Shown: positions 16,327 to 47,208 of the stretch, piece by piece | Layout: every line of letters starts with the position of its first letter | How positions within the stretch are numbered: position 1 is the stretch's first letter | From: Lachnospiraceae bacterium | Lineage (GTDB): Bacteria; Bacillota; Clostridia; Lachnospirales; Lachnospiraceae | Assembly (NCBI GenBank): GCA_022794265.1 | Contig: JAAWEK010000013.1 | Location: 62,001-126,000, forward strand | Direction: 5' to 3' | DNA length: 64,000 nucleotides | Position numbers and translations under genes: made by a program | The notes under the pieces: model-generated | What the model was told of the DNA's origin: nothing | The model's input: the letters and a program-made list of their open reading frames with translations, nothing else | Database searches by the model: none

Positions 16327-16397
16327 TGTTTGAAGTTAAATTTCCATATGGGAAGTTTGGCAGACAGATTGGTGAATCCCATAGAGATGAGGTTGAA

Positions 16398-18020: not shown

Positions 18021-18066
18021 GCGAAACCCCTGCTTTCAATGGGAAGAATGGAGGAAAGATGGATAT

Positions 18067-19134: not shown

Positions 19135-19143
19135 GAGAAAAAT

Positions 19144-22178: not shown

Positions 22179-22199
22179 ACTTATAGAAAGGAATATTTT

Positions 22200-23099: not shown

Positions 23100-23257
23100 T
23101 AGATTACTGGAAGATTGGAAATTCTTAATATAATTATTAAAAAACAGTTTTTCAGGATTAACTGAATGCGAGATATAAAATTAATAGAAAGGAAGGTGTT
23201 AGCTACTCATCTTTCAATTATTAAATATGTAAGATTTGTAGCTGTATAGATTTAGGA

Positions 23258-23938
23258 ATGAAAAAGTTATTGATTTTTGGAATGGATGATATAGCAGAAG
23301 TTGCAAAGTTTTATTTTGAGAATGATTCGGAATATAAGGTGGAAGCATTTACTGTGAATCGTGAATACAAAAAAAATAATACCTTTTGTAACTTACCAGT
23401 GTTTGATTTTGAGGATATAGAAAATTATTTTTCGCCAACTGAATATGAAATGTTTATTGCAGTAGGTTATTCTCGTATGAATAAAGTGAGAGAGGAAAAA
23501 TATAACATTGCAAAACAAAAGGGATATAAACTTGCAAGTTATATCAGTTCACATATTACATGTTGGATTGATAGAAAACAGATTGGAGATAACTGTTTTA
23601 TTTTAGAGGACAACACAATTCAGCCATTTGTTAAAATTGGAAACAATGTTGTCTTGTGGAGTGGAAATCATATTGGTCATCATGCGCACATAGGAGATCA
23701 TGTTTTCATTGCATCACATGTAGTTTTATCTGGAAGGACATACGTTGGAGATAATAGCTTTATTGGAGTAAATGCAACAGTTAATGATCATGTTGCAATA
23801 GGCAAAGGTTGTGTGATAGGATCTGGAGCATTAATTACAAAAGATACAGAGATGAACTCAGTATATAAAAATCAATATACGCCAATATACGTTAAAAAAA
23901 GCGATGAACTTAATTATTTTAAAAGTAACAATAATTAA
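23258..23938 (+). CDS. PglD/NeuD-like sugar O/N-acyltransferase
   Basis: 226 residues. The N-terminal Rossmann module (LLIFGMDDIAEVAKFY, ending SYISSHI) is followed by a left-handed beta-helix made of hexapeptide repeats from about residue 112: IGDNCFILEDNTIQPFVKIGN, VLWSGNHIGHHAHIGDHVFI. The His-His in NHIGHH is where PglD-type enzymes keep their catalytic histidine. Acceptor is probably the 4-amino group of a dTDP- or UDP-linked 4,6-dideoxysugar, in line with the WecE-type gene two positions upstream. The ribosome binding site is poor: AGGA abuts the ATG. The 158 bases before it hold no convincing gene. Confidence 0.78.
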   Translation: MKKLLIFGMDDIAEVAKFYFENDSEYKVEAFTVNREYKKNNTFCNLPVFDFEDIENYFSPTEYEMFIAVGYSRMNKVREEKYNIAKQKGYKLASYISSHITCWIDRKQIGDNCFILEDNTIQPFVKIGNNVVLWSGNHIGHHAHIGDHVFIASHVVLSGRTYVGDNSFIGVNATVNDHVAIGKGCVIGSGALITKDTEMNSVYKNQYTPIYVKKSDELNYFKSNNN

Positions 23939-28128: not shown

Positions 28129-28207
28129 ACAAAGTATGATATCGATATATTTTTTTCGGGATTACAATGAAGAATATTATTATGGAAAATGAAAGAAGAT
28201 GAAATTT

Positions 28208-28873
28208 ATGATGAAAAACCTGATTATAGTCGGAAATGGAACATATGCAAAAATGATGAAAAAATATATTGACATGACTTTGTTCGGACAGGTACTTTCT
28301 TATGTAGCAGATAAGGAGTTTATCTATGAAACAGAATTAGATGGAATTAATGTGATTTCCTTTGAAGAATTGTTTGAAAGATTTTCAGAAAAAGAAATAA
28401 CATTGATTATGGGAATAGGATATACTCAAATGAGTAATCTTCGAAAGAAAATTTTTGAACGATGTAAAGAAAGAGGATATAGATTTGAAAATTATATACA
28501 TCCTACAGCAATTATTGCACCGGATGCTAAAATCGGTGAAGGAAATAATATTCTGGAAACGGTTATTATAGAAGCCGGAGTATCAATTGGAAATGGGAAT
28601 CTTTTTTATGGGGGAGTTATAATAGGGCATGACTCAAGTGTAGGAGATTATAATACATTTTCTGTTAAGGCTGTTACTGCAGGTTTTGTCACGATTAAAA
28701 ATAATTGTTTTCTGGGTGTAGCATCTGCTGTAAAAAATGATATAATTATAAATGATTATTCGATGATTGGCGCAATGGCATGTGGTTATAAAGATATGGC
28801 AGAATACTCTGTGGTTGTTCCGGCTAGAAGTGAAGTTTTGCAACATAAAAAAAGTACAGATTGTCATCTGTAA
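28208..28873 (+). CDS. PglD/NeuD-like sugar acyltransferase
   Basis: 221 residues. The N-terminal Rossmann module is NLIIVGNGTYAKMMKKYI, with ITLIMGIGYTQMSNLRKK and the join FENYIHPTAIIAPDAKIG, followed by a left-handed beta-helix (GNNILETVIIEAGVSIGNGN, IIGHDSSVGDYNTFSVKAVT). The IIGHDSSVG stretch holds the expected catalytic-type His. It is a paralogue of the protein at 23258-23938, differing in the helix loops, so two amino or hydroxyl groups may be acylated. The ATG-ATG at 28208 is preferred to an ATG at 28199. Typical partners of such enzymes are NeuB-type or 4-amino-4,6-dideoxysugar pathways, both present here. Confidence 0.75.
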   Translation: MMKNLIIVGNGTYAKMMKKYIDMTLFGQVLSYVADKEFIYETELDGINVISFEELFERFSEKEITLIMGIGYTQMSNLRKKIFERCKERGYRFENYIHPTAIIAPDAKIGEGNNILETVIIEAGVSIGNGNLFYGGVIIGHDSSVGDYNTFSVKAVTAGFVTIKNNCFLGVASAVKNDIIINDYSMIGAMACGYKDMAEYSVVVPARSEVLQHKKSTDCHL

Positions 28874-32305: not shown

Positions 32306-33295
32306 ATGTTAAACAATAAAACAATTTTAATCACAGGCGGTACAGGTTCTTTTGGTAAAAAGTTTCTGGAAATGATATTTGCAGATTACAAACCGAAAAA
32401 GGTAATCATCTATTCCAGAGATGAATTTAAACAGAGTGTGATGAAAAGTGAATATACCGGTAAAGTGGATATGAGCAGGGTCAGATTCTTTATCGGTGAC
32501 GTACGGGACCGGGAGCGTTTGTACAGAGCCTTTGAAGGCGTGGATTATGTTATTCATGCGGCAGCCATGAAACAGGTGCCTACCTGTGAATATAATCCGA
32601 TGGAAGCCATAAAGACCAATATCCATGGTGCACAGAATGTTATTGATGCGGCATTGGATAAGGGTGTTAAAAAGGTAGTTGCCTTATCGACAGATAAAGC
32701 AGTAAATCCAATTAATCTGTATGGTGGTACAAAATTAGTGTCAGATAAATTATTTATTGCCGCCAATGCCTACAGCGGAACTTCAGGAACCGTATTTTCC
32801 GTAGTAAGATATGGAAATGTAGCCGGAAGCCGGGGCTCCGTTATTCCGATTTTTCAGAGAATTCTGGACAGGGGAGAAAAGGAACTTCCGATTACAGACC
32901 TTCGAATGACAAGATTCTGGATTACCCTGGAACAAGGGGTACAGCTGGTGTTTAAGGCATTGGAGGAATCCAAAGGCGGAGAAACCTATATATCAAAGAT
33001 TCCGTCTTTCCATATCGGAGATTTGGCAAAAGCCATGTGTGCAGATTCGGTAATTAAGGAAATCGGTATCCGGGAAGGAGAAAAGCTGCATGAAGTCATG
33101 GTAACAAAAGATGATTCCCGTATGACCTATGAATATGATAAACATTATATTATATATCCAAATTATACCTGGCATAATGAAAGTATGATATTGCCGGGAG
33201 GGGTTCCGGTAGGCGACGGATTTGAATATAATTCCGGTACAAATAAGGAATGGCTGGATGTGGAGGAACTAAAGGAAGCATTAAAGCATATGTAA
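32306..33295 (+). CDS. pseB: PseB, UDP-GlcNAc 4,6-dehydratase (inverting)
   Basis: First enzyme of pseudaminic acid synthesis: UDP-GlcNAc to the 4-keto-6-deoxy-L-arabino sugar. The 329 residues show ITGGTGSFGKKF (NADP loop), VIHAAAMKQVPTCEYNPMEA, VVALSTDKAVNPINLYGGTK with the Tyr/Met-x-x-x-Lys region of the family, RYGNVAGSRGSVIP, and DLRMTRFWIT. Length and motifs are those of the FlaA1/PseB group. AAAGGAG is well placed. It opens an operon of closely spaced genes running to 44338 behind a SigD promoter. The G+C content rises sharply here (31 of 60 in bases 32821-32880). Confidence 0.93.
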   Translation: MLNNKTILITGGTGSFGKKFLEMIFADYKPKKVIIYSRDEFKQSVMKSEYTGKVDMSRVRFFIGDVRDRERLYRAFEGVDYVIHAAAMKQVPTCEYNPMEAIKTNIHGAQNVIDAALDKGVKKVVALSTDKAVNPINLYGGTKLVSDKLFIAANAYSGTSGTVFSVVRYGNVAGSRGSVIPIFQRILDRGEKELPITDLRMTRFWITLEQGVQLVFKALEESKGGETYISKIPSFHIGDLAKAMCADSVIKEIGIREGEKLHEVMVTKDDSRMTYEYDKHYIIYPNYTWHNESMILPGGVPVGDGFEYNSGTNKEWLDVEELKEALKHM

Positions 33296-33336
33296 GAAAA
33301 TAATATATCAAATAAACGGATACGGAGAAAACGGAA

Positions 33337-33903
33337 ATGACAACATTTTATTCACCAGAAGAATTAAAAGAACTGGGAATTAAGGAATTTGGAGAAAATG
33401 TATTAATCAGCAGAAATGCGATTTTATATTCTCCAGCAACCCTGACTATTGGACATGATGTCAGAATTGATGATTTCTGCATTTTAAGTGGAACCGTTAT
33501 TCTGCATAATTTTATTCATATTGCCCAGTTTTGCGGATTGTATGGAGGAGACAGCGGAGTGGAAATGATGGATTATACTTCGCTTTCATCAAAATGTTCC
33601 ATTTATGCGGTTTCAGACGATTATAGCGGAGACTCCATGACGAATCCAATGATACCAATGAAGTATAAACCAGGGTCTATTGACAGTAAGGTTACGATTG
33701 GGAAATATGTTGCGATAGGTGCCTCTTCCGTCGTACTTCCGGGAGTAAATCTGGCCGAGGGCAGTTCCTTTACGGCCATGAGCCTGTGTGCAAGAGATTC
33801 GGTGGAATGGACGGTAAATGCCGGAGTTCCGGCAAGGCGTGTGAAAGACAGAAGCAGGAAGCTGTTGGAGCTGGAACAGGAGTTTTTGAAAGAAAGAGGA
33901 TAA
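33337..33903 (+). CDS. Left-handed beta-helix acyltransferase
   Basis: 188 residues of hexapeptide repeats (ISRNAILYSPATLTIGHDVR, VTIGKYVAIGASSVVLPGVN, FTAMSLCARDSVEW) with the closing helix DRSRKLLELEQEFLKERG. It lacks the N-terminal Rossmann module of the PglD-like proteins in the AT-rich island and so is a different subgroup of trimeric acyltransferases. It sits between pseB and an FkbH-like/ACP pair, in an operon with no GNAT-type PseH. It is therefore the best candidate for the enzyme that acylates the 4-amino group of the Pse precursor, perhaps from an acyl-ACP. That role is inferred. Confidence 0.75.
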   Translation: MTTFYSPEELKELGIKEFGENVLISRNAILYSPATLTIGHDVRIDDFCILSGTVILHNFIHIAQFCGLYGGDSGVEMMDYTSLSSKCSIYAVSDDYSGDSMTNPMIPMKYKPGSIDSKVTIGKYVAIGASSVVLPGVNLAEGSSFTAMSLCARDSVEWTVNAGVPARRVKDRSRKLLELEQEFLKERG

Positions 33904-33928
33904 ACCTGCGATATGCGGAGGTATATAA

Positions 33929-35641
33929 ATGCAGTTTTCAGATTATCTAAAATCTTATCGACAATGTATAAAGGAAATGCCACAGAAGAAAATTCAGGTG
34001 GCATTTCTTTCCATGTTTACCATAAAGGGGTTAAAGGAAGTATTAACGGTAAAAGCTTTTAAAGAAGGAATCGGTATAGACTGTTATGAGGGAGCCTACC
34101 GGCAGGTAATACAGGAAGCTCTTGGTTGGAACGAGCAATTCGTTATACCGGATATTACCTTCCTGTTATGGGATGCAGAAAGCCTTCTGGGAGATTATTA
34201 TATAGATGCATACAAATATACGGTTTCAGAACGGAGAAATTATATAGAAGACAAATGGAAAGAATTTCGGCAATATGTAAATCTTTTGGAACAAAATATT
34301 CCGGGGATTCTGGTAATACATAATTTTGCATATCCGGCCTTTTCGCCCTTGGGAATCATGGAGACGAAACAGGAATTCGGACTGATGGAAAGCATTGAAT
34401 ATTTGAATCATAGTCTGGCGGAGTACTGCAGGGATAAGACTTCGGTCTATATATTTGATTATGCCGGTTTTCAAAGCCGTTTTGGAGCGGCAGCTCTAAA
34501 GGATAATAAGATGTATTATCTGGGGGACATGAAATTATCCATGGACGGATTAATTTTATTGGCAGATGGATATTTATCATTCATCCGGGCATTGGCAGGA
34601 AAAAGCAGAAAGTGTCTGGTGTTGGATTTGGATAATACGCTTTGGGGTGGAATTGTTGGGGAAGACGGCATTGACCATATTAAGCTGGGACTGGATTATG
34701 AAGGAAAGGCATATCGTGAATTTCAGATTTATATTAAAAGTCTGTTGCATCGTGGTGTGATTTTGGCTGTTAATAGTAAGAACAATTATGAAGATGCCAT
34801 GGAGGTCATTGAAAATCACAATTATATGGTACTTCAGAAACAGGATTTTGCGGCTTTTAAAATTAACTGGCAGGATAAGGTCAGCAATATGAAAGAACTG
34901 GCAGAGGAACTGAATATCGGACTGGATAGTATGGTATTTATAGATGATGACGAGGTTAACTGCGAAATGATGAGGACAAACCTGCCGATGGTAAAAACCA
35001 TTCATCTGAACGGAAATCCGGTTACTTATGTAGATGAAATAAAACGATTAACGGATTTTAATACCTTATCATTTACAGAAGAAGACAGAAAGAAAAATGA
35101 GCAGTACCGAACCCAGATACTTCGGAATGAATTGAAAAGCAATACGGCCACATTGGAGGAATTTATTCTGAGCCTGAATATCCAGACCCGGTTTGAACAA
35201 CTGAACGATTCCAATATAGGACGGATTTCCCAGTTAACCATGAAAACCAATCAGTTTAATCTTACCACCCGGCGTTATACAGAAAGTGATCTGGAAACTT
35301 TAAAGAGTTCCGGTTATGAAATTGTGTGTATACATGTTTCGGACCGCTTTGGAGATAATGGAATTTGCGGAGTACTGATTTATAAATTGGAGAAACAGGA
35401 GCTTTTTATTGATACCATGCTATTAAGCTGCCGGGTGATGGGAAGAAAAATAGAAGATAAATATTTTGAATTTCTTGAGGAAGCAGCGGAAAAAGAACAG
35501 GCAGCGGCCATAACCGGAGAATATATACCAACATTGAAAAATAAACCGGTGGAAGGATTGTATCAGGAAAAAGGCTTTGTCTGTATTCTTCAGGATGAAA
35601 ACAGACAGATGTGGAGAAAAAATAGAAAAGGAAAGGAATAA
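33929..35641 (+). CDS. FkbH-like HAD-family protein
   Basis: 570 residues. FkbH-type enzymes take 1,3-bisphosphoglycerate, remove phosphate and load a D-glyceryl group on an acyl carrier protein. The core HAD motif KCLVLDLDNTLWGG with the Asp-x-Asp-x-Thr nucleophile lies near residue 232; GVILAVNSKNN gives the second motif and SMVFIDDDEVNCEMM the acidic metal-binding motif. An SGNH-like N-terminal region (1-220) and a GNAT-like FkbH C-terminal region (FNLTTRRYTESDLE, VCIHVSDRFGDNGICG) complete the full-length family layout. It is two bases before an acyl carrier protein gene, the expected partner. GGAGG precedes the ATG. Confidence 0.87.
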   Translation: MQFSDYLKSYRQCIKEMPQKKIQVAFLSMFTIKGLKEVLTVKAFKEGIGIDCYEGAYRQVIQEALGWNEQFVIPDITFLLWDAESLLGDYYIDAYKYTVSERRNYIEDKWKEFRQYVNLLEQNIPGILVIHNFAYPAFSPLGIMETKQEFGLMESIEYLNHSLAEYCRDKTSVYIFDYAGFQSRFGAAALKDNKMYYLGDMKLSMDGLILLADGYLSFIRALAGKSRKCLVLDLDNTLWGGIVGEDGIDHIKLGLDYEGKAYREFQIYIKSLLHRGVILAVNSKNNYEDAMEVIENHNYMVLQKQDFAAFKINWQDKVSNMKELAEELNIGLDSMVFIDDDEVNCEMMRTNLPMVKTIHLNGNPVTYVDEIKRLTDFNTLSFTEEDRKKNEQYRTQILRNELKSNTATLEEFILSLNIQTRFEQLNDSNIGRISQLTMKTNQFNLTTRRYTESDLETLKSSGYEIVCIHVSDRFGDNGICGVLIYKLEKQELFIDTMLLSCRVMGRKIEDKYFEFLEEAAEKEQAAAITGEYIPTLKNKPVEGLYQEKGFVCILQDENRQMWRKNRKGKE

Positions 35642-35643
35642 GT

Positions 35644-35859
35644 ATGGAACAGATTATTGAAATATTAAAAAATGCATTAGGAACACTGAACATTAGTGAA
35701 GATACCACAAAAGAAAATTGTGAGGAATGGGATTCTTTTAATCATCTGGTAGTTGTTGCAGATTTGGAACGGGAACTTTCTTTGGAATTTACCATTGAGG
35801 AAACTGAAAGAATGGACAGTGTAAAAGATATTTTTGAAATAGTCAAAGCAAAGGCTTAA
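35644..35859 (+). CDS. Acyl carrier protein
   Basis: 71 residues, acidic, four-helix ACP pattern. The 4'-phosphopantetheine attachment serine is Ser31 in EEWDSFNHL (the usual Asp-Ser). It starts two bases after the FkbH-like stop with AAAGGAA upstream, so the two are made together. A stand-alone ACP beside an FkbH protein is the hallmark of glyceryl-ACP formation in polyketide pathways. Here it lies in a sugar operon. It is not the fatty-acid ACP: it is short, divergent and not next to fab genes. Confidence 0.88.
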   Translation: MEQIIEILKNALGTLNISEDTTKENCEEWDSFNHLVVVADLERELSLEFTIEETERMDSVKDIFEIVKAKA

Positions 35860-35889
35860 AATGTACAGTGCCGAACATCGGAGGATATT

Positions 35890-36267
35890 ATGAAATTACA
35901 TCATATTGGAATTGCCACTAAAGATATAAATGTTACAAGAGATTATATAAAAAACCTGTATCCGGTTTTAAAAGAGACAGATATTGTTTATGATGCAAAT
36001 CAGGATGCAAAACTTTGTATGCTTACTTTGGAGGACGGTCTTGGTTTAGAGCTGATTATGGGAGATAAAGTGAATAGTTTTGTGGATAAAAAACAATATA
36101 TTTATCATTTGTGTTTTGAAGTGGAAGATATTGAAGAAGCAATTTCCGGATATCGGAAGAGCCGGGATATCATTATGACAAATCCCACGCCGGCAGTATT
36201 ATTTGATAACCGGCGGGTGGCATTTGTATTTAGTAAAATAGGAATCATTGAGTTAGTAGAAAAATAA
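35890..36267 (+). CDS. VOC/glyoxalase-fold protein (methylmalonyl-CoA epimerase-like)
   Basis: 125 residues with two beta-alpha-beta-beta-beta halves. Likely metal ligands are His5 in LHHIGIATKD, the Glu in LGLELIMG, the His in YHLCFEVEDIEE and the Glu in GIIELVEK. This is the layout of methylmalonyl-CoA epimerases, but other VOC members do isomerisation or dioxygenation. The neighbours suggest action on the acyl-ACP or acyl-sugar, for example epimerising a hydroxyacyl centre. GGAGGATATT lies directly before the ATG. Confidence 0.72.
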   Translation: MKLHHIGIATKDINVTRDYIKNLYPVLKETDIVYDANQDAKLCMLTLEDGLGLELIMGDKVNSFVDKKQYIYHLCFEVEDIEEAISGYRKSRDIIMTNPTPAVLFDNRRVAFVFSKIGIIELVEK

Positions 36268-36284
36268 AGGAACAGGAATAATAT

Positions 36285-39029
36285 ATGATCAATAAAGAAG
36301 ATGGAAAAGAAGTAATTGTAATCTATAAGGGCGATTCCAAATATGATACCATGTGTGTATTTTCAGACGAACTGGGAAGTTCTTTTGAAAGACTTGGTTT
36401 TCAGGTAGTAACTGTTGATTTAAATGATGAAAGGGATACTAATCAAAAAATTAATATGCTTGCCAGTATTCAGGTTAAGGCGTTTATCGGGTTCAACGGA
36501 GTTGGGGCGGGGGTACAGCTCAGTGACGGAGCATATCTGCAGGACATTTTAAACGGGCCGTATTATGGTTTTTTTGTGGACCATCCCGTATATCAGTATA
36601 ACCGGCTTGTAACGCCTATTCGGAATATGAATGCATTTGTTGTGGATGAATCCCATGTTGATTATATTCGTCTGCATCATCCGGGCATTAAGAAAGTTCA
36701 GATGATTCCCCATGGCGGAATTATTCCGGCAGAGGTACAGTCTTATGAGAAACGGAAAAAGGATGTAGTATTTTTTGGTTCCTTTGTCAGACCGGAGAAA
36801 ATTCTTGAGCAGATTGACCAGCTTCCAGAGCCGGGATTAACGGATATTGTTTATAATGTGATTGAGCGTATGCTGACAGATTTTCAGATAACCATTGATA
36901 TGGCCTTTGATGCCATGCTGCAGGAAAATCATCTGAATCTCAGTCCTGAGGATTACCATTCCTTTATGTCTTATATCCGTCTGGCAGATACCTATGTGAG
37001 ACAGTATTTCCGTTATCTGATTGTTAAAACCATTGCAGAAGCAGGAATAAAAATAGAATTGTATGGAGAGGGATGGAGTGACTTCCAATGTGGTGCAAAG
37101 GAAAATCTGATTATTCATGAACCGGTTTCCTTTCGGGAAAGCAGCGATATTATGGGCCACAGTAAAATCGTATTAAATGTGATGCCATGGTTTAAAAAGG
37201 GAAGCCATGAGAGGATATTTATGACCATGTTATCCGGGGCGGTTTGTATTACAGATAATAGTACATATATTGATTGCGAATTTACGGATAATGTTGAGAT
37301 AATCACATACTCTTTAAACCGGCTGGCAGAATTACCAGTGAAGATAAAATATCTTCTTCAGGATGCCGACGCCGCCAGGAATATTGCCGAAGCAGGAAGA
37401 AGAAAAGCGGAAGAATTTCATACATGGGATAACCGGGCAGAAAAAATGCTGGAATACATGGAGCAGGATTCAGCGAAATCATATATGACAGAGATAACGG
37501 AAATCCTTGCTTCATTGGATAATACAAAATATAATCTGTTAAAGTATAACAAACTGCAGGAGTTATTTAATTGTCTGAAACAGATGTATCAGATGTTGCA
37601 GGATACAGACAGGAAAAAAGTATTTTCGGTATTGGAGAACAGACAGAAAAGCAATTCACCGGCGGCGTTGGCATTAAATTCCTTTGCAATGAAATTTTTT
37701 GGAGAACCGGAATATACCATAAAACTTATAGATATGGTAAGCGAAAGTGGAAAATACCATTGGGAAACGAAACTGACCGTATATTGGTATATTGTACAAT
37801 ATTCTTTTACCAGGGGTTTAATTATGAATGCTGAAGCGGGCAGAAAACTTCGAAAATTATATATGAATGTTGTTTATGATATTAAAAATGAATGCCATCT
37901 ACAGTATGAATTTAGGAATAAGGAGAAACGGAATTCCAACCGGGTGGTAGTTCTGATTTCACAGTTTCTTACGATGGAGCATGGGCCTACCAAGACAGTT
38001 CTGGACAGATGTCAGTGTCTGATAGAAGACTACGGTATGGAAATTGTATTAATCAATACGGCGGAATTTATGTATAACGATAAAATACTTTGTTTGTATG
38101 ATATGAAAGGCGGTTCATATAACGCCAGTCTTTCTGATACAAAAGAAATAGAGTATATGGGATACAAAATTCCGTTTTATCAGTGTTCTGAGAATATGCC
38201 GTATACAGAGGAAATATGCAGAATTGCGGAACAAATATATGAGATAAATCCTTTCTTTATATTAAATATCGGCGGAAACAGCCCGATGACGGATATCTGC
38301 AGTGATTTTTGCCCTACGCTGACAATTTCTACGGTACCCTCTTCTTTGGCAACCACACTGGGACAGTTTCAGGCAATCGGGAGGCAGATAACGGATTTTG
38401 ACAGGGAAATCTTAAAATACTATGGGAAATCCGATAATCATATTATAGAGAGCCGGTTTACCATGTCGGTAAAACCTCAGGAATCAACGCTTTCCAGAAA
38501 AGAACTGGGATTGCCGGAGGATAAGTTTGTAGTAATCCTGATTGGCGGCAGACTGACGGAAGAGCTGGAAGATGAATTGCTGGACAGGTTGTTGCATGAT
38601 ACGGATACTGGCACGGTAATAGCACTGGCGGGCTGTTATGATACATATGAGAAAAAAGCGGCAGAGATTCAGGGATTTACCGATAAAATTGTAAATCTGG
38701 GTTTCCAGAATGATATGCTGGCAGTGCTGGACTGCTGTGACCTGTATATTAATCCGAAACGGAAAGGCGGTGGAACCTCGGCGTTTGAGGCCATGTATAA
38801 GGGAATTCCCCTGGTTACGCTTCCGGTGGGAGATGTAGGTCTGGCAGCAGGAGCAGATTTTCATGTGCCGGATTATGATGAAATGATTCAAAGAATTATA
38901 AAATATAAGTCAGACAGGGAATATTATGAAATGCAGTCCCGGAAGGCAAGAAAACGTAGCGAAGAACTGATGGATACGTCAAAAGAATTTGGAAAAATAA
39001 TTGATGAAATGATAAAGCGGATGGAATAA
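36285..39029 (+). CDS. Double glycosyltransferase (CgeB-like plus GT-B)
   Basis: 914 residues holding two transferase units. Residues 10-390 are CgeB-like: GPYYGFFVDHPVYQYNR, AFVVDESHVDYI, QMIPHGGII, IVLNVMPWFKKGSHERIF and GAVCITDNSTYID. Residues 545-910 are a second GT-B unit: VVVLISQFLTMEHGPTK, LNIGGNSPMTDI, FVVILIGGRLTEELEDEL, LYINPKRKGGGTSAFEAMYK and GIPLVTLPVGDVG. A helical stretch of about 150 residues links them. The second unit resembles the C-terminal half of the protein at 19144-21045. Two successive sugar additions by one chain would be the simplest reading. It lies 17 bases after the VOC gene. Confidence 0.68.
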   Translation: MINKEDGKEVIVIYKGDSKYDTMCVFSDELGSSFERLGFQVVTVDLNDERDTNQKINMLASIQVKAFIGFNGVGAGVQLSDGAYLQDILNGPYYGFFVDHPVYQYNRLVTPIRNMNAFVVDESHVDYIRLHHPGIKKVQMIPHGGIIPAEVQSYEKRKKDVVFFGSFVRPEKILEQIDQLPEPGLTDIVYNVIERMLTDFQITIDMAFDAMLQENHLNLSPEDYHSFMSYIRLADTYVRQYFRYLIVKTIAEAGIKIELYGEGWSDFQCGAKENLIIHEPVSFRESSDIMGHSKIVLNVMPWFKKGSHERIFMTMLSGAVCITDNSTYIDCEFTDNVEIITYSLNRLAELPVKIKYLLQDADAARNIAEAGRRKAEEFHTWDNRAEKMLEYMEQDSAKSYMTEITEILASLDNTKYNLLKYNKLQELFNCLKQMYQMLQDTDRKKVFSVLENRQKSNSPAALALNSFAMKFFGEPEYTIKLIDMVSESGKYHWETKLTVYWYIVQYSFTRGLIMNAEAGRKLRKLYMNVVYDIKNECHLQYEFRNKEKRNSNRVVVLISQFLTMEHGPTKTVLDRCQCLIEDYGMEIVLINTAEFMYNDKILCLYDMKGGSYNASLSDTKEIEYMGYKIPFYQCSENMPYTEEICRIAEQIYEINPFFILNIGGNSPMTDICSDFCPTLTISTVPSSLATTLGQFQAIGRQITDFDREILKYYGKSDNHIIESRFTMSVKPQESTLSRKELGLPEDKFVVILIGGRLTEELEDELLDRLLHDTDTGTVIALAGCYDTYEKKAAEIQGFTDKIVNLGFQNDMLAVLDCCDLYINPKRKGGGTSAFEAMYKGIPLVTLPVGDVGLAAGADFHVPDYDEMIQRIIKYKSDREYYEMQSRKARKRSEELMDTSKEFGKIIDEMIKRME

Positions 39030-39049
39030 GTACCAGACTGGAGGCTATT

Positions 39050-39784
39050 ATGAAAATATTATGTATTATACAGGCGAGAATGGGGTCCGAGCGTCTGAGA
39101 GGTAAGGTAATGAGGGAAATTCTGGGAAAACCCATGATTACTTATACTTTGGACCGGACGTTAAAGAGCCGTTATATTGACCAGGTGGTTCTGGCCACAT
39201 CGGATAAAGACACGGAAACCCCAATGGTGGAATATCTGACAGACCATGGCTACAATGTATTCCGTGGAGATGAAAATAATGTGCTGAGCCGTTATGTGGA
39301 GGCGGAGAAAGCCTATGACGGAGATATTATCATGCGGATTACCGGCGACTGTCCGTTGATTGATCCGGTGGTCATTGATGAGGTAATCACTTATTTTCTG
39401 GCCCATAATTTTGATTATGTCCGGGTGGATGTACCAGACAGTTTTATCCGGGGATTTGATGTGGAGATATTTACAAAATCCGCCCTGAAGCGGGTATATG
39501 AGATAACCGGGGAAATTCCCGGAGACTCTCCGTATAAGGAACATGTCACTCTGTATATGTATCGTCATCCCGAAGAATTTTGTGTCAGTACTTTTCGGGG
39601 AAGCGAATTGTATAACAGAAACTACCGTTTGTGTGTGGATACGACAGAGGATTTTCAACTTGTGACCCGGATATATGAACATTTTGGGGATAGGTTTGTA
39701 AATGGAAAAGATGTTATTCGTTTTCTGGACGAACATCCGGAAATCGCCGGGATTAATCAGAACATTGAACAGAAACATGTTTAA
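39050..39784 (+). CDS. pseF: PseF/SpsF-type CMP-pseudaminic acid synthetase
   Basis: 244 residues of the SpsF-like cytidylyltransferase group: ILCIIQARMGSERLRGKVM (CTP loop), KPMITYTLDRTL, VVLATSDKDTETPM, VFRGDENNVLSRY, IMRITGDCPLIDP and RLCVDTTEDFQLV. It activates the finished nine-carbon acid with CTP. It differs from the NeuA-like domain at 16.4 kb, a second sign that two CMP-nonulosonates may be made. GGAGG lies 7 bases before the ATG. Order pseF-pseI-pseG-pseC downstream makes the assignment firm. Confidence 0.87.
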   Translation: MKILCIIQARMGSERLRGKVMREILGKPMITYTLDRTLKSRYIDQVVLATSDKDTETPMVEYLTDHGYNVFRGDENNVLSRYVEAEKAYDGDIIMRITGDCPLIDPVVIDEVITYFLAHNFDYVRVDVPDSFIRGFDVEIFTKSALKRVYEITGEIPGDSPYKEHVTLYMYRHPEEFCVSTFRGSELYNRNYRLCVDTTEDFQLVTRIYEHFGDRFVNGKDVIRFLDEHPEIAGINQNIEQKHV

Positions 39785-39831
39785 AATAAAGGATGTGCTG
39801 TAAAAACAGACTGAAAAGGAATTGGTTTGAA

Positions 39832-40902
39832 ATGAAAAAAAATATTGTGATTGGAAATACGGTAATCGGTCCGAATGAAAAAACATTTATTATAGCGGAA
39901 ATGTCTGCTAATCATCTGATGGATTATGAACGGGCGGTCCGAATTATGGAGGCGGCGAAAGAATCCGGTGCGGATGCCGTTAAAATTCAGACCTATACGC
40001 CGGATACCATTACAGTGGACTCCGATAAACCCTGGTTTCAAATTACACAGGGAACCATATGGGATGGGGTAACGCTTCATAAGTTATATGAAACCGCCTA
40101 TACGCCGTGGGAATGGCAGCCGAAACTGAAAGAGGAAGCACAGCGTCTGAATCTGGAGTTTTTTTCGTCTCCTTTTGATTTGACTGCCGTGAATTTTCTG
40201 GAAGAGATGAATATCAGTGCATATAAGATTGCCTCCTTTGAAATTACGGATATTCCATTGATTCGGAAGGTGGCGGAAACCGGAAAACCGGTTATCATCT
40301 CTACAGGCATCGCTTACAGAGAAGATATAGAGGAAGCGCTGAAAACCTGTGAGGAAGCCGGAAACCGGCAGGTAATTCTTTTGAAATGTTCATCGGCTTA
40401 TCCGTCTCCATATGAGGATATTAATTTAAAAAGTATTGAAAAAATTGCAGAGGATTTTCAATGTATCACGGGGCTTTCCGATCACACCATGGGTTCGGCG
40501 GTGGCAGTGGCAGGAGTGGCCCTGGGCGCCAAAGTGGTTGAAAAACATTTAACATTGAGCAGGGCAGATGGCGGGCCTGACGGGGCGTTTTCTATGGAAC
40601 CCCGGGAATTTAAAGAAATGGTTGACAATATCCGTATGACGGAAAAAGCAATAGGAACAGCCACATATGACTTGACCGAAAAACAGAAAAACAGCCGGGA
40701 ACATTCCCGTTCTCTTTTTGTGGTACAGGACATGAAAAAAGGAGATGTTATTACCGCTGAGAATGTACGCTCCATACGCCCGTCCTGTGGTCTTCATACC
40801 CGGTATTATGAAGGGATACTTGGAAAAAGGGTCAATCGGGATTTGGAACTGGGTACTCCGATGTCCTTGGATTATCTGGAGGAGAAACCAGAGATTTTAT
40901 AA
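39832..40902 (+). CDS. pseI: PseI, pseudaminic acid synthase
   Basis: 356 residues from the ATG at 39832 (AAAAGGA 11 bases upstream; an in-frame ATG at 39793 has its purine run directly against it). NeuB-family TIM barrel plus SAF domain: FIIAEMSANHLMDYERAVRI, VKIQTYTPDTITVDSD, FFSSPFDLTAVNFLEEM, YKIASFEITDIPLI, VIISTGIAYREDIEEAL, LLKCSSAYPSPYEDIN, GLSDHTMGSAVAV, and the C-terminal SLFVVQDMKKGDVI with RPSCGLHTRYYE. The ANH and TPDTIT segments are typical of PseI rather than NeuB or LegI. It condenses the 6-deoxy-AltdiNAc-type sugar with phosphoenolpyruvate. Confidence 0.92.
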   Translation: MKKNIVIGNTVIGPNEKTFIIAEMSANHLMDYERAVRIMEAAKESGADAVKIQTYTPDTITVDSDKPWFQITQGTIWDGVTLHKLYETAYTPWEWQPKLKEEAQRLNLEFFSSPFDLTAVNFLEEMNISAYKIASFEITDIPLIRKVAETGKPVIISTGIAYREDIEEALKTCEEAGNRQVILLKCSSAYPSPYEDINLKSIEKIAEDFQCITGLSDHTMGSAVAVAGVALGAKVVEKHLTLSRADGGPDGAFSMEPREFKEMVDNIRMTEKAIGTATYDLTEKQKNSREHSRSLFVVQDMKKGDVITAENVRSIRPSCGLHTRYYEGILGKRVNRDLELGTPMSLDYLEEKPEIL

Positions 40903-40931
40903 TATTCAGAAGCGGCAGGAGAGGTTATGTT

Positions 40932-41957
40932 ATGCTGTATATAAGAGTGGATGGGAATGAAAAAATTGCCACCGGACATGTGATGCGGTGTCTGTCCATA
41001 GCAAAAGCCCTAAGAAGTCTGGGGGAGGAATCCGTATTTATACTGGCAGAATCCTATGGGGTGCCAATCATAGAAAAAGAAGGATTTAAGGCCGTCTGTA
41101 TCAACGGAAGCTATGATAAAATTACGGAAGAAACAGAGAAGATGGATGAGATGATTGCCAGCCACCGGATTCAAAAATTACTGGTGGATTCCTATTTTAT
41201 AGATGAAACCTATTTGGAACATTTGCGTCGGAACACTTCATTAATTTATATTGACGATATAGGCGGGAAGATTTATCCCGCTGATATATTGATTAATTAT
41301 TGTAATTATTATGACAGGTTCCGCTATAAAGAACGGTATGGGAACACAGACACAAAACTGCTGTTGGGCTGTTCCTATGCTCCACTGCGGGAGGAATTTT
41401 CCCACCGCCGGGAACGGCAGTTTGATGAATTTCGGGAAATTCTTATAACTACCGGAGGAACAGATGGTTATAATATGGCATACAGGATTGGGGTTGCCAT
41501 GGCAGAATGTTCAACTCTTCGGAATATAAAGATTCATATTGTGTCCGGACGGTTCAATACCCATCTTTCTGAACTGCGGGAACTGGAGAGCAGGGCCGGA
41601 AATATTGTAATACATCACAATGCCGGAAACATGGCAGAATTAATGATGAATTGTGATGCGGCGGTATCGGCAGGCGGGACTACCTTGTATGAAATCTGTT
41701 ACTGTGGACTCCCCACGGTCTGTTTTGCTTTTGCGGATAATCAGCTGGACGGAACAGGAAGATTTGGAGAAGAGGAAGTTATGATCAATGCAGGCGATAT
41801 CCGAAAGAATCCGGATCGGGCAGTCAGGCGGATTGTGGATAACATATGCCGTCTGGCGGAGGATTCTGGTTTGCGCAGGAGATTTTCGGATAAGATGTGG
41901 AAACTGGTAGACGGAAACGGCGCCCTTCGTATAGCCAAGGAGATACAGGCATTATAG
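40932..41957 (+). CDS. pseG: PseG, UDP-sugar hydrolase of Pse synthesis
   Basis: 341 residues. Removes UDP from UDP-2,4-diacylamino-2,4,6-trideoxy-L-altrose by C-O cleavage. Visible marks: YIRVDGNEKIATGHVMRCL with the catalytic-type His16, LLVDSYFIDETYL, LIYIDDIGG, LLGCSYAPLREEF, ILITTGGTDGYNMAY, and AVSAGGTTLYEICYCGLPTV, the UDP-binding loop. A second PseG-like domain is fused to NeuA at 16.4 kb. GAGAGGTT precedes the ATG. The gene lies 29 bases after pseI and 33 bases before pseC. Confidence 0.93.
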   Translation: MLYIRVDGNEKIATGHVMRCLSIAKALRSLGEESVFILAESYGVPIIEKEGFKAVCINGSYDKITEETEKMDEMIASHRIQKLLVDSYFIDETYLEHLRRNTSLIYIDDIGGKIYPADILINYCNYYDRFRYKERYGNTDTKLLLGCSYAPLREEFSHRRERQFDEFREILITTGGTDGYNMAYRIGVAMAECSTLRNIKIHIVSGRFNTHLSELRELESRAGNIVIHHNAGNMAELMMNCDAAVSAGGTTLYEICYCGLPTVCFAFADNQLDGTGRFGEEEVMINAGDIRKNPDRAVRRIVDNICRLAEDSGLRRRFSDKMWKLVDGNGALRIAKEIQAL

Positions 41958-41990
41958 GGCGGAATGAGGAAAGAAAGGAATAAGGATATT

Positions 41991-43130
41991 ATGAGTCAGA
42001 CAAAATATATTCCCTATGGAAGGCAGTGTATTAATGAAGAAGATATTCAGGCAGTGATTGAGACGCTGAGATCGGATTATCTGACCACAGGGCCGAAGAT
42101 AGAGGAATTTGAGCAGAAAGTTGCCAGCTATTGCGGCGCCCGGTATGGGGTGGCGGTATCCAATGGAACGGCGGCATTACATATTGCCTGTATGGCGGCA
42201 GGAATCGGTCCGGGGGATGAAGTGATTACCACGCCGGTAACTTTTGTAGCCTCCGCCAATTGCGTGTTATATTGCGGCGGAACTCCTGTATTTGCAGATA
42301 TCGATGCTGAAACCTATAATATTGATCCGGAAGATATCCGCAGGAAAATCACGGACAGGACCAAGGCCATTGTGGCTGTCCATTTTACCGGACAACCCTG
42401 CGAGATGGATGAAATACGCCTGATTGCAAAAGAGCATAACCTGATTGTGATAGAGGATGGCGCTCATGCACTGGGAGCGGACTACAAAGGGAAGAAGATT
42501 GGAAGTATTTCAGATATGACAACCCTGAGTTTTCACCCAGTGAAGCATATTACTACCGCAGAGGGTGGAATGGTGCTGACTGATAATGAGGAATTATACA
42601 GGAAACTCTGTTTGGCCAGAACTCACGGAATTACCAGGGATACGGCTCTGATGGAATCCGGCAGGTCCGATGAACCGTGGTATTATGAGCAGATTTCTCT
42701 GGGCTATAATTATCGTATAACCGACATACAGTGTGCTTTGGGAATTTCCCAGATGAACCGGCTGGATGAATTTGTGGAAAAAAGACGGAGACTGGTTCAG
42801 CGGTATAATGAAGCGTTTCAGAATGTTTCGGGAATCATTACGCCGTATCAGAGGGAAGGCTGTTACAACAGCTATCATCTGTATGTGATACAGATTACGG
42901 AGGGGTCGAGAAAAGAAGTATTTCAGGCGCTTCGTTCCGCAGGAATCGGTGTCAATGTGCATTATATACCGGTATATACCCAGCCGTATTACAGAAGTCA
43001 CGGATATGCCGATGTATGCTGTCCGAATGCCGAGCGGTATTATCAGCGGGCCATTAGTCTGCCGCTGTATCCGGAACTTACCTATGAAGAGCAGGATTAT
43101 GTGATTGAACAGGTATTACGGTGCGTCTGA
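41991..43130 (+). CDS. pseC: PseC, UDP-4-amino-4,6-dideoxy-AltNAc transaminase
   Basis: 379 residues from the ATG at 41991 (an upstream ATG at 41964 would add nine residues with no family support). PLP enzyme of the DegT group: YIPYGRQCINEEDIQAV, TTGPKIEEFEQKVASYCGA, VSNGTAALHIACMAAGIGPG, VIEDGAHALGADYKGKKIGS, PLP lysine in SFHPVKHITTAEGG, and GYNYRITDIQCALGISQM. It performs the second step of the pathway. Its place at the end of the pse set, far from pseB, is unusual but not rare. G+C is high: 37 of 60 in bases 42121-42180. Confidence 0.93.
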   Translation: MSQTKYIPYGRQCINEEDIQAVIETLRSDYLTTGPKIEEFEQKVASYCGARYGVAVSNGTAALHIACMAAGIGPGDEVITTPVTFVASANCVLYCGGTPVFADIDAETYNIDPEDIRRKITDRTKAIVAVHFTGQPCEMDEIRLIAKEHNLIVIEDGAHALGADYKGKKIGSISDMTTLSFHPVKHITTAEGGMVLTDNEELYRKLCLARTHGITRDTALMESGRSDEPWYYEQISLGYNYRITDIQCALGISQMNRLDEFVEKRRRLVQRYNEAFQNVSGIITPYQREGCYNSYHLYVIQITEGSRKEVFQALRSAGIGVNVHYIPVYTQPYYRSHGYADVCCPNAERYYQRAISLPLYPELTYEEQDYVIEQVLRCV

Positions 43131-43162
43131 AAACGGTTGGGGTAAAGAAAAGGAGAACTGTT

Positions 43163-44338
43163 ATGAACAGTGCAAAAAAGCATATTCTGATATATGATTA
43201 TAAACATTACGGTGTTTTGGATATACGGGAAGCATTTGAAAAAAAAGGATTTCAGACTGACATCTTCAGTCAGCCGCTGAAGGATAATCTGAAAGACAAT
43301 GAATTTGACCAGGCTTTGGAACAGGCTGTTGCAGTCAGCCGGCCGCTATTTATGTTTTCATTTAACTTTTATCCGATTATTTCCAATATCTGTAAAAGGA
43401 AAGGGATTCCTTATGTCTGCTGGGTTTATGACAGTCCGTTGGTTTCGCTGTATTCCTATACAGTCATTAATGATAATAATTATATTTTTCTTTTTGACAG
43501 TGAGCAGTATAACGACCTGAGAAGAAAGGGGATATCTACGGTTTATTATCTGCCGCTGGCCGCTAATGTGGCCCGGCTTGACGGATATCAGTCCATGGAA
43601 CAGAAATTTGTATCCGATATTTCCTTTGTGGGTTCCATGTATGATGAGGAAAAACATGCATTATACAAGCGGCTCTATGAGGGATTAAGCGAATACGGCA
43701 GAGGGTATTTGGACGGAGTGATTCAGATACAGAAAAATATATACGGAACTTCCATTCTGGAAAGTGCCATTACACCTGAAATATTACAGATTATGCAGGC
43801 GGCGCTTTATGTTACCACAAATCCCGACGGTGTGGAATCGCCGGCATATACATATGCCAATTATTTTCTGGCAAGGCGCGTAACGGAACTGGAACGGCGG
43901 GATGCAGTGCAGCGTCTCGGAAGACTGGGGAATTTTAAACTGTATACCCGGAATCCTTCGTTTCAGCTACCAGGTATAATAAATATGGGGCCGGTAGATT
44001 ATTATAATGATATGCCACATGTATTTAAACATTCAAAGATTAATCTGAACATTACACTCCGCAGCATTGTTTCGGGAATTCCGCTAAGGGTATTTGACAT
44101 TATGGGATGTGGCGGTTTTGTACTGACCAGCTATCAGCAGGATATGTTTGAGTATTTTGTACCGGAAGAGGATTTTGTATTTTATTCTGATATGGAGGAG
44201 TTATCGGACAAATGTAAATTTTTTTTGGAACATGAGGATATACGAAAGAAAATTGCCGGGAATGGATATGAAAAAGTGAAAAAATATCATACCTTTGATA
44301 TAAGAGTTGAAGAAATATTAAATACCATAAAAATCTGA
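43163..44338 (+). CDS. CgeB-like glycosyltransferase
   Basis: 391 residues from ATG 43163 with AGGAG 7 bases upstream (the open frame reaches back over the pseC stop). It is a paralogue of the protein at 25581-26738: PLFMFSFNFYPIISNICKRK, YVCWVYDSPLVSLYSY, IFLFDSEQYNDLRRKG, INLNITLRSIVSGIPLRVFD and MGCGGFVLTSYQQDMFEYF. The last gene of the pse operon, it is a candidate for transferring or extending the Pse-type sugar on flagellin. A 3' terminator is not evident. Confidence 0.78.
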   Translation: MNSAKKHILIYDYKHYGVLDIREAFEKKGFQTDIFSQPLKDNLKDNEFDQALEQAVAVSRPLFMFSFNFYPIISNICKRKGIPYVCWVYDSPLVSLYSYTVINDNNYIFLFDSEQYNDLRRKGISTVYYLPLAANVARLDGYQSMEQKFVSDISFVGSMYDEEKHALYKRLYEGLSEYGRGYLDGVIQIQKNIYGTSILESAITPEILQIMQAALYVTTNPDGVESPAYTYANYFLARRVTELERRDAVQRLGRLGNFKLYTRNPSFQLPGIINMGPVDYYNDMPHVFKHSKINLNITLRSIVSGIPLRVFDIMGCGGFVLTSYQQDMFEYFVPEEDFVFYSDMEELSDKCKFFLEHEDIRKKIAGNGYEKVKKYHTFDIRVEEILNTIKI

Positions 44339-45844: not shown

Positions 45845-45888
45845 AACTGCCCCGTAACCATGAAAAGGTTATGGGGCAGTTTTTTAAA
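45845..45888 (+). terminator. Rho-independent terminator
   Basis: AACTGCCCCGTAACC pairs with GGTTATGGGGCAGTT (one G-U), loop of seven, then TTTTT. It ends the transporter gene and overlaps the last codons of the convergent FliD-like gene. On the minus strand the T run is too short. Confidence 0.93.
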
Positions 45889-47167
45889 TATAGCCGTTAT
45901 ACATCATTCCAGTGTATATGGAAGTTACATATGGGTTTGCAAATGATTTCTTTGGATTCGGATAGGAAATCATGACTTTTTTCACATATTTCATAGGGTT
46001 AATGGAAATATCGTCTGCCTTGGCTGCCAGACCATTCTTAAATTCCCGCAGATGGTTCAGACTTTCCGAAATGGTTCCCTCTTTGGCGGACTGCAGAATC
46101 AGGGATTCGTCAAAATCCAGATGCCCTTCTTCCGTAATATTTAATCCGATACTTTCAAGATCATTTTTATATCGCTGGGTCATTCGAAGGATTTCTTTCT
46201 GCAGGGAATGGTTTTTATCACTTTCACTGTTAGTATTATTAGCTAAATCCACGATGTTGTTGTAACTGTCGGCCATACCCTTTATGGAATCAATTATGGA
46301 AATAACGTCATCCTGATATTTAATTCTGGAAGGACTGTCATCCGGGCTGATTCCTTTTAAGGTGACTTCCAGATTTTTATTGACAGTAAATGTGTTGGTC
46401 GCAGAAGTTCTGTTCACGCCGTTTAATCGGAATTCTGCATTGGCGGAAGTCTGACTTACATTATTTAATCCCAACAGCTCAATAGTGTTATCTTCAAGCT
46501 GTTCATGTGTATTTCCAATGGAAAATAAAGTTCCGTTAAAAGAAGATCCGGTGTTTTGTGAGGTAAGTTTCAGCGCTGATTTATTTGATTCATTGGTAAT
46601 GACCTGGGCTGTCAGACCAATATCGGAACGATTAATCAGACGGGCCAGTTTCTCCTGAACGGATTTGTTGGTATCCTCCGGATGAACCGAATACTGAAAT
46701 TCATAGGAATAATCGCCAATATCTACTTGAAAAGCATGGTTTCCGGTGGAAATGGAAGTTCCGTTTGATTTTAAAAAATTTCCGGTATTAATCTGAGGTT
46801 TAGCAAGGGCATTCACCTGAAACTCATAAGATAATATGGATTCATTCTGTTCCGAATCCGGTAAACCTGTGTAATTGATGGATAAAACATCTTCATCTGA
46901 GGAAATCAGTTTTTTGCGAATGCCATTGTCGGAATCGCTAAAAAATAAATCGGTCTTTGATTTGATGAAGCGAGCATTTTCTTTTAAATCAATGGCGTAC
47001 CGCTGAATATTTTCAGATACATCCACCTTATATAAAGGGGATTTTTTACTGATTTTAACAATCGTATTATAAATATTACGCAGTTCACTTTTTTTATGAG
47101 TATCGGAACGTGTTGCCGGTTTACTGGCATATGTGGTTAGATAGTAGTCGTATACACTGCCAATCAT
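45884..47167 (-). CDS. FliD-like (filament cap-like) protein
   Basis: 427 residues on the minus strand. The N-terminal part is serine- and lysine-rich helix; the middle has beta-rich D2/D3-like sequence (EFQVNALAKPQINTGNF, HAFQVDIGDYSYEFQYSV, FRLNGVNRTSATNTFTVNKN); the C-terminal part resembles FliD_C (DSIKGMADSYNNIVDLANNT, ESIGLNITEEGHLDFDESLI). The end TSIYTGMMYNGYI is not the usual FliD end. It is isolated from other flagellar genes and faces the glycan operon. Start: ATG 47167 with GAAGG 8 bases upstream, not GTG 47176. A paralogue of the cap or a cap-associated adhesin is possible. Confidence 0.62.
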   Translation of the reverse strand: MIGSVYDYYLTTYASKPATRSDTHKKSELRNIYNTIVKISKKSPLYKVDVSENIQRYAIDLKENARFIKSKTDLFFSDSDNGIRKKLISSDEDVLSINYTGLPDSEQNESILSYEFQVNALAKPQINTGNFLKSNGTSISTGNHAFQVDIGDYSYEFQYSVHPEDTNKSVQEKLARLINRSDIGLTAQVITNESNKSALKLTSQNTGSSFNGTLFSIGNTHEQLEDNTIELLGLNNVSQTSANAEFRLNGVNRTSATNTFTVNKNLEVTLKGISPDDSPSRIKYQDDVISIIDSIKGMADSYNNIVDLANNTNSESDKNHSLQKEILRMTQRYKNDLESIGLNITEEGHLDFDESLILQSAKEGTISESLNHLREFKNGLAAKADDISINPMKYVKKVMISYPNPKKSFANPYVTSIYTGMMYNGYI

Positions 47168-47208
47168 AATGCTCACCTTCTTTTGAAAAAATCTTGATAT
47201 TTAACATT

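Follow-up and report, generated by a model that had tools for sequence, protein, structure and literature searches.

The 64 kb stretch analysed here, referred to as the window, lies on contig JAAWEK010000013.1 of a Lachnospiraceae bacterium (genome of 2.88 Mb in 34 contigs, 91% complete). It carries a row of eleven closely spaced genes for the synthesis of pseudaminic acid (Pse), located at positions 32306-44338 and encoded entirely on the plus strand. No gene for PseH was found in this row. It encodes instead a hexapeptide acyltransferase of the left-handed beta-helix (LbH) type, which very probably stands in for PseH, followed by an FkbH-type protein, an acyl carrier protein (ACP) and a VOC-fold protein. 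Our results partly support an earlier, sequence-only reading of this DNA. In our own reading, two modules meet in this operon, namely an acyltransferase swap (LbH for PseH) and a separate FkbH-ACP-VOC acyl loader.

The pse gene row and its flagellar setting

The genes follow one another in this order:

32306..33295, plus strand: pseB, UDP-GlcNAc 4,6-dehydratase (inverting); TIGR03589, 533 bits, cut-off 408
33337..33903, plus strand: LbH (hexapeptide) acyltransferase, 188 amino acids, AntD-like, proposed PseH stand-in; PDB 3vbi, 187 bits, residues 1-186
33929..35641, plus strand: FkbH-type HAD-IIIC protein, 570 amino acids; TIGR01686, 297 bits, cut-off 147; PF21211 FkbH_N
35644..35859, plus strand: ACP, 71 amino acids, Ser31 in a DSF motif; PDB ACP matches and aligned serine column
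35890..36267, plus strand: VOC-fold protein, 125 amino acids, glyoxalase I / methylmalonyl-CoA epimerase type; PF13669 and PDB 3hdp
36285..39029, plus strand: two-part glycosyltransferase, 914 amino acids; PF13524 and PF00534
39050..39784, plus strand: cytidylyltransferase in the pseF position; PF02348 (CTP_transf_3); PseF model 40 bits, below cut-off
39793..40902, plus strand: pseI, pseudaminic acid synthase; TIGR03586, 488 bits, cut-off 340
40932..41957, plus strand: pseG, UDP-sugar hydrolase, 341 amino acids, no fused GNAT; TIGR03590, 198 bits, cut-off 154
41964..43130, plus strand: pseC, aminotransferase; TIGR03588, 523 bits, cut-off 424
43121..44338, plus strand: CgeB/DUF3880-type glycosyltransferase overlapping pseC, probably the final gene of the unit; PF13524 and PF12996

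The sequence-only reading had claimed that all Pse enzymes except PseH are encoded here. This was borne out for PseB, PseC, PseG and PseI, which all exceed the curated NCBIfam cut-offs, and less so for PseF, as the protein encoded at 39050-39784 scored 40 bits against a cut-off of 205.7. The same protein scores better with KdsB-type cytidylyltransferase models than with PseF, all of them below their own cut-offs; its position and its match to CTP_transf_3 suggest that it takes the pseF role. All genes named in that reading lie between 32306 and 43130, and the hexapeptide acyltransferase, FkbH, the ACP with its Ser31 and the VOC protein were indeed found between pseB and pseF. The 914-residue glycosyltransferase between the VOC gene and pseF had gone unmentioned.

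The successive gaps in the row measure 41, 25, 2, 30, 17, 20, 8, 29 and 6 bases, and the last pair of genes overlaps. These values come from open reading frame coordinates beginning at the first possible start codon (ATG, GTG or TTG), so that some starts are called too early and the true gaps are perhaps somewhat larger. As eleven genes share one strand, with no gap larger than 41 bases and an overlapping last pair, the arrangement is not due to chance, and we infer a single transcript. A scan for promoter-like sites (42 versus 40 expected) and terminator-like sites (14 versus 7.9) was of little use. The row is situated between a flagellin gene (1081-1890) and a minus-strand gene (45884-47176) whose product has a partial FliD_C match, which places it in a flagellar region.

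The LbH acyltransferase, a probable stand-in for PseH

With regard to PseH, the sequence-only reading had found none in the locus, and a search of the whole genome agrees with it. The PseH model TIGR03585 returned four GNATs of 22-35 bits (cut-off 93.1), so that no GNAT passes the cut-off in this 91%-complete genome. None of the four is on the contig of the window, and reading 7 kb around the best of them revealed no pse gene. In the control, the same model gave a match at an E-value of 0.001 in 13 of 14 genomes. A distant PseH elsewhere was rejected on this search, within the limit of the genome's completeness. Two hidden forms of PseH were also discarded. A fusion to PseG leaves too little room, since TIGR03590 spans residues 3-272 of 341; the C-terminal third of FkbH, which has no PDB match, showed no relation to PseH-type GNATs at the profile level (probability 0.3%), although a common GNAT fold is conceivable.

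The closest solved relative of the LbH protein is 3vbi/3vbj. It is labelled in the PDB as a galactoside O-acetyltransferase, and we take it to be AntD, an N-acyltransferase. The substrate of AntD is a dTDP-4-amino sugar and its donor an acyl-CoA, whereas the LbH of the window belongs to a UDP-sugar pathway and is encoded beside an ACP. The match (187 bits) extends over residues 1-186 of 188, practically the full length, and the two positions altered in the PDB variant entries correspond to S84 and D94 of LbH, both unchanged (among five of the six distinct sequences listed).

Relatives of LbH are uncommon, occurring in 10 of 397 genomes of the family at an E-value of 1e-15, this one included, and in 6 of 361 genomes of the class at 1e-40, two of which (this one and G139) were already in the family set. 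In a tree of 14 LbHs, the window protein forms one clade with those of L116 (genome G077) and L129 (genome G209), with a support of 95/95 from a bootstrap that had not settled; the L129 protein, whose start was called too early, was trimmed by 148 residues. All three are encoded in pse loci, each beside pseI or pseB. With regard to the other 11, a PseC-like aminotransferase gene is adjacent in nine and three genes away in L165; the last one, L168, comes from a short contig. Several of these loci also contain RmlA/RmlB-like genes, as judged by eye. The simplest reading of these neighbourhoods is that a 4-amino-sugar N-acyltransferase has moved into the pse pathway. The sequence-only reading, which had a hexapeptide acyltransferase in the place of PseH, is consistent with this, and the homology argues strongly for the 4-amino group as the acceptor of LbH.

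Another acetylating enzyme could be at work, either a PseH encoded in a stretch that the 91%-complete genome lacks, or a NeuD/PglD-type LbH encoded at 28199-28873, leaving some other task to the AntD-like LbH. The 28199 protein reaches 159 bits against a NeuD-family cut-off of 160.8, yet its gene is 3.4 kb upstream of the row, and a NeuB-type locus at 16326-23938 may claim it, or its own LbH at 23258. As the AntD-like LbH, moreover, has pse-linked sisters, we consider this explanation very improbable. The NeuB-type locus is a second nonulosonate locus in the window, comprising genes for a protein that has both cytidylyltransferase and GT28-C domains, NeuB, a DegT aminotransferase and a hexapeptide transferase.

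The absence of PseH is not peculiar to this operon. In the family survey, 56 of 250 Lachnospiraceae genomes, including this one, passed the PseI cut-off and were counted as 56 pse loci (G032 fell below it and was excluded). In 31 of the 56, none of GNAT, ACP, FkbH, LbH and VOC was detected by profile within 10 kb of pseI, some of these loci being truncated by contig ends. A missing PseH-type GNAT near pseI is therefore not rare in the family, and such loci may use other enzymes. In two pse loci (L106 and L120), relatives of PIG-L and formyltransferase are encoded within about 2 kb of pseI, possibly for N-formyl pseudaminic acid.

The FkbH-ACP unit and its partners

FkbH, the only one found in this genome, passes the TIGR01686 cut-off and has the motif DLDNT at residues 233-237, corresponding to the HAD motif DxDxT. 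It is expected to load glyceryl on the ACP, as FkbH proteins of polyketide clusters are described to do from 1,3-bisphosphoglycerate (PMC7489565). The partners differ: FabH-like proteins or dehydrogenases accompany FkbH and ACP in the polyketide loaders described there, whereas a sugar acyltransferase and a VOC protein do so in the window. The ACP matched no Pfam or NCBIfam family at an E-value of 0.001, yet it matches ACP chains in the PDB (2lml, 1.6e-4), and its Ser31 falls in the serine column of all 24 aligned ACPs (itself and 23 others).

The VOC protein resembles PDB 3hdp (E-value of 4e-14) and scores 36 bits with the methylmalonyl-CoA epimerase model TIGR03081, below the cut-off of 115. 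Its residues H5, E54, H73 and E121, which presumably correspond to the metal ligands of glyoxalase I, are kept and are identical in 13 aligned sequences, one of which is clipped at the start and lacks the first position. We can only guess at its role; C2 epimerisation of an alpha-hydroxyacyl thioester is suggested because this is the sort of molecule that VOC enzymes handle.

FkbH passes its cut-off in 30 of the 57 family genomes picked for PseI, one of which is below the PseI cut-off. We read 29 FkbH loci, from 25 of these 30 genomes (all except G073, G118, G138, G200 and G282) and from G003, G024 and G042. Three loci (L136, L168 and L171) are on short contigs. Of the 29, 23 encode an ACP at most 2 kb from FkbH and nine a VOC protein at most 3 kb away, while an MBOAT gene occurs within 6 kb in 13 of the 22 FkbH loci that are not near pseI (one of them weak, 41 bits) versus none of the seven that are. 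These counts point to FkbH-ACP as a unit that meets different acyltransferases. In the FkbH tree, the window protein does not group with its Lachnospiraceae counterparts but with proteins of Woesearchaeota, Nitrospirota and Thaumarchaeota, to which it is 41-44% identical; FkbHs of its own phylum that are outside the tree are equally close (G806 44%, G662 41%). The FkbHs of pse loci are spread over at least three separate branches. A contig scan with the FkbH query returned five loci.

The MBOAT counts bear on a further alternative, in which LbH uses another acyl-CoA, in line with the donor of AntD, and FkbH-ACP-VOC supplies a different pathway, for instance an O-acylation catalysed by an MBOAT protein. 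It gains from the frequency of MBOAT genes away from pseI and from the two MBOAT genes of this genome. Nevertheless, neither of the latter shares the contig of the row, and the 9 and 16 kb read around them contain no ACP; no MBOAT gene occurs within 6 kb of the seven pse-linked FkbHs, and FkbH, ACP and VOC are encoded inside the pse row itself. We regard this alternative as improbable here.

Two other kinds of FkbH-ACP locus were observed. Those with MBOAT (L132, L133, L134, L138, L140, L142, L143, L145, L146, L147, L148, L150 and L170, the MBOAT of L142 being assigned by Pfam) resemble a Dlt-like system and may place a glycerate-derived acyl group on an exported polymer. Others have MaoC-like and SDR-like genes, as judged by eye (L077, L132, L205, L207, L208, L210 and L218; MaoC was Pfam-tested solely for the L116 protein), and dehydration and reduction of glyceryl-ACP there could yield lactyl-ACP. 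In L006 and L010, a NeuB-type gene is also near FkbH.

Near pseI, FkbH was found alongside PseH-type GNATs. FkbH is encoded within 10 kb of pseI in seven of the 56 family loci, namely that of the window, L077, L081, L085, L086, L095 and L122. In L077, it is 8 kb away, with NeuD-, MaoC- and SDR-like genes (by eye), whereas L081, L085, L086, L095 and L122 encode PseH-type GNATs of 111, 96, 118, 90.5 and 114 bits. At the level of class and phylum, 18 FkbH loci were read. Four of them (L212, L213, L214 and L216) have pseI, GNAT, ACP and FkbH within about 4 kb, with VOC in three (that of L214 appears as a short open reading frame), and L219 has the same genes within 7 kb and a second GNAT-like gene near FkbH. 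In these five, PseI scores 477-509 bits (cut-off 340) and the pseI-adjacent GNATs score 112, 110, 111, 101 and 130. Mutual exclusion of FkbH/ACP and PseH was hence rejected, as ten loci were found to have both. Other N-modifying genes occur in three of the ten, encoding PIG-L and formyltransferase in L212 and L216 and Antibiotic_NAT and DUF4910 proteins in L214. In the other seven, none of these four types was found, which makes the pseI-adjacent acyltransferase the likely user of the ACP there too.

The association with ACP was also apparent from the side of the GNATs. An ACP of at least 70 bits is encoded within 10 kb in all six family loci with a strong pseI-adjacent PseH-type GNAT, versus 3 of the 50 other loci (Fisher's test, 2.6e-6, with the 70-bit limit chosen post hoc, five of the six GNATs used to seed the profile and kinship ignored). 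The three others are the window, L077 and L115, and two more have weak matches of 21-28 bits. Among the matches listed for GNATs within 2 kb of pseI, the NCBIfam model ranks the same six on top, except that the GNAT of G212 (78.5 bits, with a weak ACP match of 28 bits) precedes that of G061 (77.1 bits). The G061 locus, L113, combines its ACP with FabG-, LuxE- and LuxC-like genes (by eye) instead of FkbH. L115 (8430-12815) is a pse locus with genes for an ACP, a VOC protein, a PIG-L deacetylase and, beside pseI, an LpxD-type LbH (176 bits, below cut-off); the FkbHs found in its genome are on other contigs.

The proposed pathway and its parallels

The product of the operon would be CMP-pseudaminic acid destined for flagellin, made with an altered N-acylation step. 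The first steps, by PseB and PseC, lead to UDP-4-amino-4,6-dideoxy-AltNAc. LbH would acylate its 4-amino group, which becomes N7 of the final sugar, a step normally performed by PseH. FkbH would load a glyceryl unit on the ACP, by family precedent from 1,3-bisphosphoglycerate, and the VOC metalloprotein may act on the alpha-hydroxyacyl thioester, for instance by epimerising C2. With the loaded ACP as its donor, LbH would then form Pse5Ac7-glyceroyl or a closely related sugar; we calculate a residue mass of 362.13 Da and an oxonium ion of 363.14. At an E-value of 1e-5, the window contains no relatives of the DUF4910, Antibiotic_NAT, PIG-L and formyltransferase proteins of L204 and L212, and N7 is therefore the only amine that the operon visibly frees. 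Because a single amine is freed (at UDP-sugar C4) and LbH is the one stand-alone acyltransferase of the operon, it is most economical to suppose that LbH passes the acyl group from the ACP to this amine. By analogy, an N7 group of the glyceroyl type is plausible; we have moderate confidence in glyceryl as the loaded acyl and somewhat less in the ACP as the donor for LbH. The whole chain, from the LbH swap to a glyceroyl-type acyl on N7, is a possibility to which we give slightly less than an even chance.

Several observations weigh against this chain. No FkbH was found in six of the nine LbH-bearing relatives searched. One of them is G209, which is 95% complete and has its LbH in a pse locus. 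For neither of the sister LbHs in pse loci (G077 and G209) does the stretch read contain an FkbH gene; in one genome no FkbH was found at all, and in the other it is on a different contig. We thus rejected LbH as a faithful partner of FkbH. AntD takes acyl-CoA and not acyl-ACP. In each of the ten other pse loci described above, FkbH/ACP is accompanied by a PseH-type GNAT; nine of these GNATs exceed the curated PseH cut-off and the tenth reaches 90.5 bits (cut-off 93.1). As PseH uses acetyl-CoA, the FkbH-derived acyl may go elsewhere there. The sequence-only reading had treated FkbH, ACP and LbH as one set replacing PseH, a view that neither the ten loci nor the two sister LbHs sustain; the neighbourhood survey did reveal a recurrent FkbH-ACP unit, albeit one found alongside PseH-type GNATs. 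Given the sister LbH in G209, where no FkbH was found, and the company of PseH proper elsewhere, the donor of LbH is the weak joint of the argument.

The same observations favour an alternative in which LbH takes over the PseH step as an ordinary N-acetyltransferase with acetyl-CoA as donor and yields Pse5Ac7Ac, while the FkbH-ACP acyl goes to N5 or to a hydroxyl via an unrecognised or distant enzyme. The C5 position of glyceroyl in Campylobacter jejuni (PMC3068675) also speaks for it. Against it stand the 25 bases that separate LbH from FkbH and the absence, in the 64 kb window, of the four types of N5-deacylase or second N-acyltransferase sought, although the two NeuD-like LbHs upstream (23258 and 28199) soften the latter point. 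On balance, we consider this alternative unlikely, if less so than the two discussed above.

Both an N7-acyl change by gene swap and a glyceroyl Pse associated with an FkbH gene are already known (PMC9676051; PMC3068675, PMC7099621). In the Acinetobacter baumannii gene set psaABCGHF, psaDE is replaced by psaGH, and the sugar is listed as Pse5Ac7R with (R)-3-hydroxybutanoyl on N7 (PMC9676051). As in the window, a gene swap alters the N7-acyl group. The A. baumannii module differs in serving a capsule and not flagellin, in transferring hydroxybutanoyl and not a glycerate unit, and in that no FkbH, ACP or VOC is named in the portion of the source covered (PMC9676051).

The flagellin of C. jejuni NCTC 11168 carries Pse with a di-O-methylglyceroyl group, described on C5 and not on C7; Cj1295 is required, and the authors hypothesise that it removes the C5 acetamido group (PMC3068675). 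Glyceroyl Pse is described as lacking in strain 12664, in which the fkbH-domain gene cj1302 is a pseudogene, and in strain 12661, which has no 'epimerase' gene cj1301 (PMC7099621). These two strains are confounded, yet consistent with a route via FkbH and an epimerase. The mass of 390.1638 for the di-O-methylglyceroyl Pse was reproduced by arithmetic as the replacement of one acetyl. C. jejuni presumably possesses PseH, and we know of no AntD-like LbH in this locus. The window is similar to C. jejuni in having an FkbH-domain gene within a flagellar glycosylation locus, beside which C. jejuni also has its 'epimerase' (PMC7099621), but it differs in that the C. jejuni acyl is on C5 and requires the aminopeptidase-like Cj1295 (PMC3068675). 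The DUF4910 protein of L204, of which the window has no relative at the above E-value, is taken as Cj1295-like by resemblance.

Flagellar glycosylation islands with ACP, FabG, LuxC and LuxE likewise combine an ACP with acyl-loading enzymes, in Aeromonas together with pse genes (PMC7874193, PMC4875605), and the L113 gene set resembles them by eye. These islands load the ACP in another way, and "FkbH" is absent from both main texts (PMC7874193, PMC4875605). The main text of a 2026 Clostridium paper mentions neither FkbH nor a carrier protein, and N7-glyceroyl-type Pse flagellins were not found described in the open-licence PMC literature.

Beyond this operon, Clostridia might carry a movable glyceroyl-ACP cassette (FkbH, ACP and, in many cases, VOC) that repeatedly joined flagellar pse operons and works with exchangeable acyltransferases, mostly a PseH-type GNAT and here an AntD-type LbH, to give N7-glyceroyl-type Pse flagellins in which VOC sets the C2 stereochemistry of the glycerate. 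We put this forward tentatively and with some doubt. If true, it would provide a genetic marker for one class of clostridial flagellar sugars, with one clear mass (oxonium 363.14), a second system beside C. jejuni for FkbH-ACP function outside polyketides, and a possible substrate for the VOC family that travels with FkbH-ACP. The flagella of this bacterium may bear a sugar with an unusual side group, and because the sugars on flagellin influence motility as well as the way in which phages and hosts recognise the bacterium, the nature of the acyl group matters.

Two further kinds of locus were observed. L204, L211 and L214 combine FkbH-ACP with genes for Antibiotic_NAT and a DUF4910/DUF2172 protein (426-438 amino acids; L009 for DUF4910). 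They are reminiscent of C. jejuni Cj1295 (435 amino acids, aminopeptidase-like) and the N-acetyltransferase Cj1296/7, and an N5-glyceroyl module in the same phylum is possible. L089 (G156), located before nusG/rplK genes as judged by eye, is a locus similar to that of the window, with pseF, pseI, pseG, a 925-residue relative of the 914-residue transferase and pseC. FkbH, ACP, LbH and VOC were not found at this pse locus, and a PylC-like ATP-grasp gene precedes its cytidylyltransferase gene (pseF), possibly providing another route of acylation.

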